From Streptomyces albogriseolus (GTDB taxonomy: Bacteria > Actinomycetota > Actinomycetes > Streptomycetales > Streptomycetaceae), in assembly GCA_014650475.1 (NCBI GenBank), contig BMVA01000004.1:186001-250000 (forward strand): a DNA stretch of 64,000 nucleotides. The letters are read 5' to 3'. A program made the position numbers and the translations under genes. The notes under the pieces are model-generated. The model searched no databases, was not told where the DNA came from, and saw nothing but the letters and a program-made list of their open reading frames with translations. Shown here in pieces: positions 8,322 through 12,971 of this stretch; within the stretch, counting starts at the first letter, position 1, and every line of letters begins with the position of its first letter.

Positions 8322-8411
8322 GCATCTTGGCGGGTCGCTGCGTCACCCGTGTCGCAGTGGGCCGGGGGGTGTGGCGCAGCCCGGCGCCGACGGGGTGCCG
8401 CCGCGCCCACC

Positions 8412-8431
8412 CGTGCCGCCCCAGCGGCACG
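8412..8431. terminator. Hairpin between convergent genes
   Basis: CGTGCCGC (8412-8419), loop CCCA, GCGGCACG (8424-8431), in the 183-base gap between the tetR stop and the convergent stop at 8505. The surrounding G+C-rich sequence holds no ORF that I can support. Confidence 0.55.
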
Positions 8432-8504
8432 AATGCCCGCTAGTTGCGGAGCGCGCGGCCGCGCGGGCGTCGGTGCTGCCGGGGTGCTCGGAGCGCCCGC
8501 CCCC

Positions 8505-10019
8505 TCACGCCACCGCGCAGGCACGCCCGTTGAGCGTGAAGTCGGACGCCAAGGTGTCCGAGCCCTGCCGGGCCGTGAGGTAGCCGAAGGCCAGGCGGCT
8601 GCCTGCCGAGACCTTGGCGTTGTAGTCGGCCGCGGCAGCGGTCACCCGTGTGTCCGTCTGGTGCACCGACGCATCCCACATGTGGGTGACGCGGTGGCCC
8701 TCGGGGACGGTGAAGGCGACGCGCCAGCCGTCCAGGGCGTGGCGGGTCGTCACGGTGACGGCGGCCTGGTAGCCGTCCGGCCACTGGTTGAGCACGTCGT
8801 AGTCGACCACGCACGCGGCAGGCGAGTCGTCCCCCGGCGTGGCGGCGGCGCCCGAGGACGTGCCCTGCGGTTCCGGGTCGGGCTCGGGCGTCGGGTCCGC
8901 CGTACGGGAGGGCGGGGCGGCGGCGCTGCTCGGCGGGGAGCTGGGGGTCGGGGGTTCCGACGGGTCCGCGCCGGCGGAACCGGACGGCGCCGTGCCCACC
9001 GGCGGCAGGGAGGGCGCGGGCGCGGCCACGGGGCCGCCGCGGTCGTTGTCGGCGGCGGGCGTACCCGGGTCCCCGCCGTCCCCGAACGGCATCAGCGACA
9101 CCGCGAGCGCGAGCAGGGAGACGACGACGGCCGCGGCCATGGGCCCGTGCCGGACGACCCGCGCCTTGCGGTCCCGTCCGTCCGCCGGGTCGTCGTGGTC
9201 CGCGTCGGGCCCCTCCGGGCGCCCCGCGCCCAGCCGGACCTCGGCGGCGCGGCGGCGGCGCTCCAGGTAGGCGAGGCCGCCCCAGCCGATGACGCCGCCG
9301 GCCAGCGCGCCGGGCAGGGTGCCGCCGTGCAGACGCAGACAGGCGGCGGCCTCCGCGCACTGGCGGCAGGTGGCGAGGTGCCGGGACAGGTCCTCGGGGG
9401 TGTCCGCGGCGGGCGAGCGGGTGACGGCGTCGAGCAGCCGGGCGTAGCTGCGGCACTCGACGTCCATCGGCGAGTCGAGGTGGTTGCGGTGGCAGCGGTC
9501 CCGGAACAGGCGGCTGACCTGGGCGAGTTCGTCGGCCGTGGTGGCGGGGTCGAGGCCCAGCCGGCGGGCCACGAGGGGCAGCGGGAGCGCCTCCGCCTCG
9601 GCCAGCCACAGCAGTTCGGCGTCCGCCTGCTGGAGGTCGCGCAACCCCCGCAGCGCGATGGGCCGTTCGAGCGGCGGGCCGGTGTAGCGGGCGGCCTCGT
9701 CCGAGTGCAGCCACAGCCGCAGTTCGGGGTCGAGCTTGTGGCCCTGCCCCTCCTTCTCCCACGCGGCGGCCGTGTTGCGCACGGCGGTCAGCAGGAGGGG
9801 GATGCGGGGCAGCCGGGAGGAGCGGCGGCCGGTCCCGCGCACGCTTCCCGACTCGGCCGCGCGCAGTTCCCGTATGCCCTCGGCGAAGGCCTCGCGGGCC
9901 AGTTCCGCGGCGGCGCTCGAGCCCGCCGTGCACAGGTCGGCGTAGGAGAGCACCGCGTCCCAGCATTCGGTGAACAGGGCCGCCTCGGTGGCGTCCTGAG
10001 GGCTCGGCAGGTCGGGCAT
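8505..10019 (-). CDS. Membrane protein fusing ECF-sigma-like region, zinc anti-sigma motif and CBM2
   Basis: 504 residues. Residues 10-180 resemble the two helical regions of an ECF sigma factor (TEAALFTECWDAVL; LLWLAEAEALPLPLVARRLG). Residues 189-221 form C189-x24-H214-x3-C218-x2-C221, the zinc pattern of anti-sigma factors. A membrane helix lies at 293-311, then a Pro/Ser-rich linker to about 400, then a cellulose-binding CBM2 module (403-504) with bracketing cysteines C403 and C501. In CBM2 the usual third surface tryptophan is Tyr466. I infer that carbohydrate sensed outside alters transcription inside. Actinobacterial ECF groups with such extensions are known. The start is ATG 10019, preceded by AGGAG. 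Confidence 0.82.
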   Translation of the reverse strand: MPDLPSPQDATEAALFTECWDAVLSYADLCTAGSSAAAELAREAFAEGIRELRAAESGSVRGTGRRSSRLPRIPLLLTAVRNTAAAWEKEGQGHKLDPELRLWLHSDEAARYTGPPLERPIALRGLRDLQQADAELLWLAEAEALPLPLVARRLGLDPATTADELAQVSRLFRDRCHRNHLDSPMDVECRSYARLLDAVTRSPAADTPEDLSRHLATCRQCAEAAACLRLHGGTLPGALAGGVIGWGGLAYLERRRRAAEVRLGAGRPEGPDADHDDPADGRDRKARVVRHGPMAAAVVVSLLALAVSLMPFGDGGDPGTPAADNDRGGPVAAPAPSLPPVGTAPSGSAGADPSEPPTPSSPPSSAAAPPSRTADPTPEPDPEPQGTSSGAAATPGDDSPAACVVDYDVLNQWPDGYQAAVTVTTRHALDGWRVAFTVPEGHRVTHMWDASVHQTDTRVTAAAADYNAKVSAGSRLAFGYLTARQGSDTLASDFTLNGRACAVA

Positions 10020-10187
10020 GAGACTCCTGCATCCACAAGCGAGGTCAACTCGCCATACCGGCGGGTGGAGTTGAAGGGAACCTCGCGGCAGTGGACGAGA
10101 GCTTTGCACGTCTCCGACACAACTGACAAGCGCTGTCTTCACTTTGTGTGGCGGTGCCGCGACCCCTCGCAGGGACCATACGCGGAG

Positions 10188-10215
10188 AAGGCCGGAACGT
10201 CTCGGTTCCGGCCTT
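10188..10215. terminator. Stem-loop terminator
   Basis: AAGGCCGGAAC (10188-10198) and GTTCCGGCCTT (10205-10215), 11 perfect pairs with a 6-base loop. It lies downstream of the radical SAM gene (minus strand) and shortly upstream of the CBM2 gene start, separating the two transcripts. Confidence 0.85.
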
Positions 10216-10237
10216 TCCCGAACGCCTCGACGGGCTC

Positions 10238-12971
<2,734 letters not shown>

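Follow-up and report, generated by a model that had tools for sequence, protein, structure and literature searches.

Gene P0001 occupies 8505..10019 on the minus strand of a 64,000-nucleotide stretch of Streptomyces albogriseolus DNA (the window; contig BMVA01000004.1, positions 186,001 to 250,000, from a genome of 8.07 Mb) and encodes a protein of 504 residues with a pseudo-sigma region, a zinc module, a membrane helix and a CBM2. Judging from its sequence and a predicted model, we lean modestly towards reading it as a single-pass polysaccharide receptor whose pseudo-sigma domain would act by protein contact, and not as a sigma factor that is released. Outside the cell, the CBM2 would bind cellulose, chitin or a related insoluble polysaccharide, and this binding, or proteolysis, would alter the inner part of the protein. 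The inner part may then be a sigma mimic that works through protein contacts, for example by taking up an anti-sigma factor or by competing for a sigma partner. It would not itself start transcription, and the degenerate domain of PhyR may be the best precedent.

Little is understood, to our knowledge, about how Streptomyces, which degrade plant cell walls, sense insoluble polysaccharide. In Clostridium, RsgI-type anti-sigma factors carry a carbohydrate-binding domain outside the cell and exert sigma control inside; the sigma factor in that system is a protein of its own, whereas P0001 holds its sigma-like region in the same chain. If our reading is true, a clade of pseudo-sigma receptors stands as sister to the one-piece sigma factors and is easily overlooked because sigma models miss its members; a homologue in S. 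cadmiisoli is annotated just as a cellulose binding domain-containing protein. It would also call for caution against taking every fusion of sigma, zinc, membrane and lectin parts as a releasable sigma factor.

Domain layout and sigma descent

The extent of the gene follows from its translation, its orthologues and a conserved start: the ATG lies at 10019 and the stop at 8505-8507, and both the start codon and an upstream GCAGGAG ribosome site are kept in an alignment of 81 sequences. As orthologues we used the best 80 of 427 relative-encoding stretches in genome contigs, all titled Streptomyces; 75 of these loci are full-length and form, together with P0001, the 76-sequence CBM2 set. Identity to P0001 ranges from 76 to 97% over the 80 loci, and the nearest named relatives among them are Streptomyces werraensis and S. 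cellulosae (97% identity over 265 residues). An earlier note, made from the letters of the window, had described a sigma-like domain, a zinc anti-sigma motif, a membrane helix and a cellulose-binding module in this open reading frame; the frame, to which it assigned no strand, and every residue it named are in place, and C189, H214, C218 and C221 as well as C403, W413, W448, Y466 and C501 were confirmed in the translation.

The sigma likeness of the N-terminus, also proposed there, holds up in profile comparison and in the predicted fold, and curated models are blind to it. With a limit of E 10, under which HMMER filters still drop most matches above E 0.1, Pfam and NCBIfam returned no Sigma70_r2, Sigma70_r4 or TIGR02937 match on P0001; by contrast, TIGR02937 does match two relatives, L137 (E 4e-17) and L142 (E 6e-18). 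An hhalign comparison of 48 orthologues with eight ECF52-type proteins, NPCBM-type relatives that stand in for SCO4117, aligned residues 8-253 at 99.0% (E 7e-18). A Pfam scan of six of those eight found Sigma70_r2 and zf-HC2 in all six and NPCBM in five. The alignment of CBM2 and ECF52-type rows is gap-free across the helix-turn-helix. In a Foldseek search with a predicted model of fair quality, ranks 1-22 were all sigma-factor entries, and the sigma4 fold is present in that model. Searches against PDB sequences were less informative: phmmer returned five matches to CBM2 and one at chance level (E 0.51, residues 179-266), and the orthologue profile returned none. As judged by profile alignment and predicted structure, the N-terminus of P0001 is homologous to one-piece extracytoplasmic function (ECF) sigma factors of the SCO4117 kind, the fused zinc module included.

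That module (residues 185-230; 9330..9467, minus strand as for all features of the gene) carries the quartet C189-x24-H214-x3-C218-x2-C221 in 76/76 sequences of the CBM2 set and aligns with the zf-HC2 segment of relatives. It is followed by the segment GGTLPGALAGGVIGWGGLAYLERRRRAAEVRL (residues 231-262; 9234..9329), the best-conserved part of the protein by identity, which is perhaps the last helix of an anti-sigma module; the mean identity across orthologues is 0.94-0.98 over residues 221-260. A diverged orthologue (L162, G043:C1:698000-701500) is missing the zinc segment, about residues 185-234 in P0001 numbering, and retains the sigma-like region, the GVIGWGG segment, the membrane helix and a CBM2-like tail.

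The membrane helix PMAAAVVVSLLALAVSLMP (residues 293-311; 9087..9143), anticipated at the same residues by the earlier note, is evident from hydropathy. The best window in P0001 is 294-312, with a mean of 2.34, and a 19-residue window with a mean of at least 2.07 occurs after residue 260 in 76/76 sequences. Basic residues precede and acidic residues trail the helix, which suggests a topology with the N-terminus inside and the C-terminus outside. By eye, residues 316-400 (8820..9074) form a fast-evolving linker rich in Pro, Ser and Ala.

The CBM2 itself, given as residues 403-504 in the earlier note, is matched by Pfam CBM_2 at residues 403-501 (8517..8813; E 1e-22, 80.8 bits against a cut-off of 24), with C403 and C501 at its ends. 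Its three aromatic positions W413, W448 and Y466, which presumably serve in binding, are well conserved: both tryptophans occur in 76/76 sequences and the tyrosine in 75/76. The tyrosine at the third position, noted earlier as of interest, is thus real, but it is no mark of P0001, because two of seven other aligned CBM2 domains of the genome (L002 and L004) share it.

The layout has precedents in print. As described in the accessible part of PMC5826349, ECF52 (SCO4117 of Streptomyces coelicolor) combines, in a single chain, a sigma region and zinc finger with a membrane segment, a proline-rich linker and a carbohydrate-binding module, and is proposed to be a working one-piece sigma factor. The portions available of two further papers report C-terminal extensions of ECF53 and ECF48 that contain one or two membrane helices along with a zinc domain (PMC8999054), and predicted glycosyl hydrolase and carbohydrate-binding domains in some ECF52/53 members (PMC10766802). 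Within that coverage, the one-piece layout including carbohydrate-binding tails is already published (PMC8999054, PMC10766802, PMC5826349), and the statement that ECF groups with zinc and carbohydrate-binding extensions are known (ECF52/ECF53) was correct. P0001 resembles ECF52 in having a zinc finger (by alignment, not by Pfam), a membrane helix, a proline-rich linker (by eye) and a carbohydrate-binding module, and in common descent over the sigma region and zinc module, residues 8-253. It differs in its tail, CBM2 in place of NPCBM, in being invisible to curated sigma models, and in lying outside the ECF52-type clade. The likeness to ECF53 and ECF48 rests on published descriptions, not on group models. 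For the degenerate arm (ricin or CBM2 sigma fusions, Streptomyces pseudo-sigma) we found no description in the literature, a weak negative, since the key classification and most subscription papers lie outside the coverage. The chain joins its sigma2-sigma4 homologue to an anti-sigma-like zinc module, a membrane helix and a CBM2, so a one-piece signaling protein that needs no separate anti-sigma gene is a fair reading.

Eroded sigma surfaces

What sets P0001 apart is the state of the surfaces with which a sigma factor works. Its sequences were compared with the eight ECF52-type proteins and 12 ordinary ECFs of the own genome, a set that leaves out the ECF41-like and multi-region sigma factors. 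In addition, 36 further relatives were sorted by the equivalent of residue 39: 13 have Asp there and 23 do not. The degenerate tally comprises 45 rows (11 CBM2, 11 ricin and the 23 further ones) and the sigma-competent tally 21, with four rows, L152 among them, outside every tally. The compared rows are akin to each other, and the residue and charge counts below are not counts of independent events.

In the sigma2-like region (residues 10-100; 9720..9992), residue 39 corresponds to the Asp of region 2.2, which we take to be the core-binding D403 of sigma70. This Asp is present in 0/22 CBM2 and ricin rows, as against 8/8 ECF52-type proteins and 11/12 ordinary ECFs; in its place stand Gln, Glu or Arg in the CBM2 rows and mostly Met in the ricin rows. 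Pfam Sigma70_r2, at E up to 0.001, detects none of the 23 relatives without the Asp and 12 of the 13 with it. In region 2.4 the charge averages +3.9 for ECFs and +2.0 for ECF52-type proteins, but 0.05 for the 76 CBM2 sequences.

The sigma4-like region (residues 121-182; 9474..9659) has an acidic equivalent of the −35 recognition helix at residues 157-171. Across the CBM2 set of 76 its net charge lies between −3 and −1 and averages −2.1; the value is +2.0 for ECF52-type proteins and +4.2 for ordinary ECFs. Throughout the 48-sequence alignment, an invariant Glu164 takes the place that Arg holds in 9/12 ECFs. The helix has a charge of zero or below in 43/45 degenerate rows (CBM2 11/11, ricin 11/11, further relatives 21/23), in contrast to 1/21 sigma-competent one-piece relatives and 0/12 ordinary ECFs. 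Since the 36 further relatives had been sorted by residue 39, charge is the sole independent readout for them; it agrees with the split in 33 of 36. By residue identity and charge, the contact positions for promoter DNA and core RNA polymerase are shifted off the sigma pattern in the P0001 clade, a further difference from ECF52, and P0001 is probably not a sigma factor in the usual sense.

These observations bear most directly on the alternative that P0001 is a working one-piece ECF sigma factor. Here, as has been proposed for SCO4117, binding of polysaccharide would trigger a cut within the membrane or close to it; with the zinc module removed or inactivated, the freed sigma domain would drive transcription. 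The layout shared with ECF52, as given in the accessible parts of PMC5826349 and PMC8999054, argues for it, as do the homology that runs through the zinc module and the retention of Glu43 in 10/11 CBM2 rows. The recognition helix that is acidic in 76/76 CBM2 sequences and the lost Asp of region 2.2 argue against it. So does L162, which lacks the zinc segment with the rest kept: if the zinc motif were an essential off-switch for a live sigma factor, such an orthologue would hardly be expected. We consider this alternative unlikely, if the most serious one; the earlier suggestion that binding frees a functional sigma domain does not sit well with residues for −35, −10 and core RNA polymerase contact that are eroded across the clade. 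According to a second alternative, the protein would be an inhibitor held in the membrane, using its sigma-like fold to bind core RNA polymerase or the flap tip, but not DNA, and so lowering the use of other sigma factors until it is released or degraded. The sigma4 fold of the predicted model and the retained Glu43 would suit such a role, but the region 2.2 Asp is absent in 11/11 CBM2 rows, and on the sequence we rate it as very improbable.

Three points weigh against our own reading of a pseudo-sigma receptor: the same Glu43, the row L152, which lies on the degenerate side of the tree and has a charge of +3 over a gapped helix, and the fact that charge is a mere proxy. A known counterpart exists in Alphaproteobacteria, where the available text of PMC8103513 describes an ECF-like domain of PhyR with degenerate promoter and core regions that titrates an anti-sigma factor. 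The sigma-like domain of P0001 is alike in its degenerate promoter and core-contact regions. The proteins differ in that PhyR belongs to the response regulators and has a receiver domain, whereas Pfam lists only CBM_2 for P0001, which has a membrane helix, a zinc module and a CBM2 and for which no NepR-like partner is known.

Selection, distribution and lectin-tailed relatives

The constraint on the inner part was assessed by the ratio of nonsynonymous to synonymous substitution rates (dN/dS), taken as medians of P0001 against 15 of the 75 orthologues in each of eight regions. The medians are 0.28 for sigma2, 0.13 for the linker between sigma2 and sigma4, 0.35 for sigma4, 0.22 for the zinc module and 0.21 for the post-zinc segment, whereas the CBM2 stands at 0.76 and the Pro/Ser linker at 0.82. 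Purifying selection is stronger on the inner sigma-like and zinc part than on the CBM2. With 76-97% identity in 80 loci and values of 0.13-0.35 in the sigma-like part, P0001 is not a product of chance. The same contrast bears on the alternative of an attachment protein, in which the CBM2 would tie hyphae to cellulose or to their own surface polymer and the inner part would be a relic or mere anchor. The strong CBM2 match and the eroded sigma surfaces are consistent with this; an inner part more conserved than the CBM2 is the opposite of a relic, and we regard attachment as improbable.

The lowest of the eight medians belongs to the sigma2-sigma4 linker (residues 101-120; 9660..9719), which has only 20 codons. 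Residues 94-120, between sigma2 and sigma4 (about 9660-9740), have a mean identity of 0.85-0.89 per 20-residue block and are, by eye in the alignment, unlike their ECF52-type counterpart. Being conserved yet different, they suggest a new contact at this site.

An N-terminal profile match at E < 1e-140 was found in 17 of 61 genomes of the genus (the own genome included, tails unchecked), and diverged versions whose tails look CBM2-like by eye are present in two more, G094 and G043, which brings the total to 19/61. The P0001-type gene is thus common in the genus but not universal.

In a 48-row tree, midpoint-rooted for drawing only and built without SCO4117 itself, the 13 CBM2 rows form a single group (support 100/98) near the ricin-tailed rows. 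A branch with the same support of 100/98 splits the degenerate 26-row CBM2 and ricin set from the eight ECF52-type rows and the ordinary ECFs. Across the family the tails are NPCBM, ricin lectin, CBM2 and, once, ricin plus CBM2; ricin lectin occurs in 21/23 degenerate relatives and in 2/13 of the Asp-bearing ones. The double tail belongs to L135 (L135:223-2403, minus strand), a possible intermediate between tail types. The own genome holds a ricin-tailed paralogue, P0002 (L014:1024-2721, minus strand), which is 31% identical to P0001 over residues 6-373 and repeats its layout with a Ricin_B_lectin tail in place of the CBM2; it shares the zinc quartet, and its sigma-like region is degenerate.

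A broader proposal, which we hold tentatively and at less than even confidence, is that the CBM2- and ricin-tailed proteins form a clade of lectin receptors in the membrane, descended from a one-piece sigma factor that turned mimic, a membrane-bound Gram-positive counterpart of PhyR. Sensing of cellulose or of a ricin-lectin ligand on the outside would then be coupled to a switch of partners that involves an anti-sigma or sigma factor on the inside. If true, several copies per genome with differing lectin tails would make up a polysaccharide sensor set that tunes sigma use without DNA binding. In the own genome, a profile of the 13 competent relatives gave nine matches and no sigma-competent one-piece relative. 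Two of the nine, the degenerate members P0001 and P0002, reach through the zinc region, and the other seven cover the sigma part only; should the partner be a sigma or anti-sigma factor, one of the ordinary kind is therefore more likely. NPCBM had no match in this genome at E 1e-3.

Upstream region and neighboring genes

Ahead of the gene, 85-112 bases before the start, lies a block near-invariant in the orthologue alignment, GCTTGTCAGTTGTG-N7-CGTGMAA (10104..10131, minus strand). A search of the genome that allowed three mismatches matched only the block itself. This leaves no obvious shared regulon through the block and is another point against a working sigma factor. A scan of 8400-10260 for sigma70-type promoters found nothing. 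Between the block and the start codon, the alignment reveals a conserved inverted repeat, CGAGG..CAACTC / GAGTTGACCTCG (10040..10085, minus strand). The single-sequence structure of the leader RNA has a z of −2.86, and in 24 sequences 0/23 predicted pairs show a double change. The repeat is too invariant for covariation, so that an RNA hairpin and a DNA operator both fit and we make no claim of structure.

Synteny with polysaccharide genes was sought in the 80 loci and not found. Upstream on the same strand, a radical SAM gene (10238-11563, minus strand; NF045502 variant_rSAM, E 2.6e-51) is present in 80/80 loci, and a gene resembling FAD-dependent sugar-lactone oxidases lies upstream in 79/80. 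The TetR gene beside P0001 in the window recurs in 4/80 loci, 66 of the 80 having full flanks.
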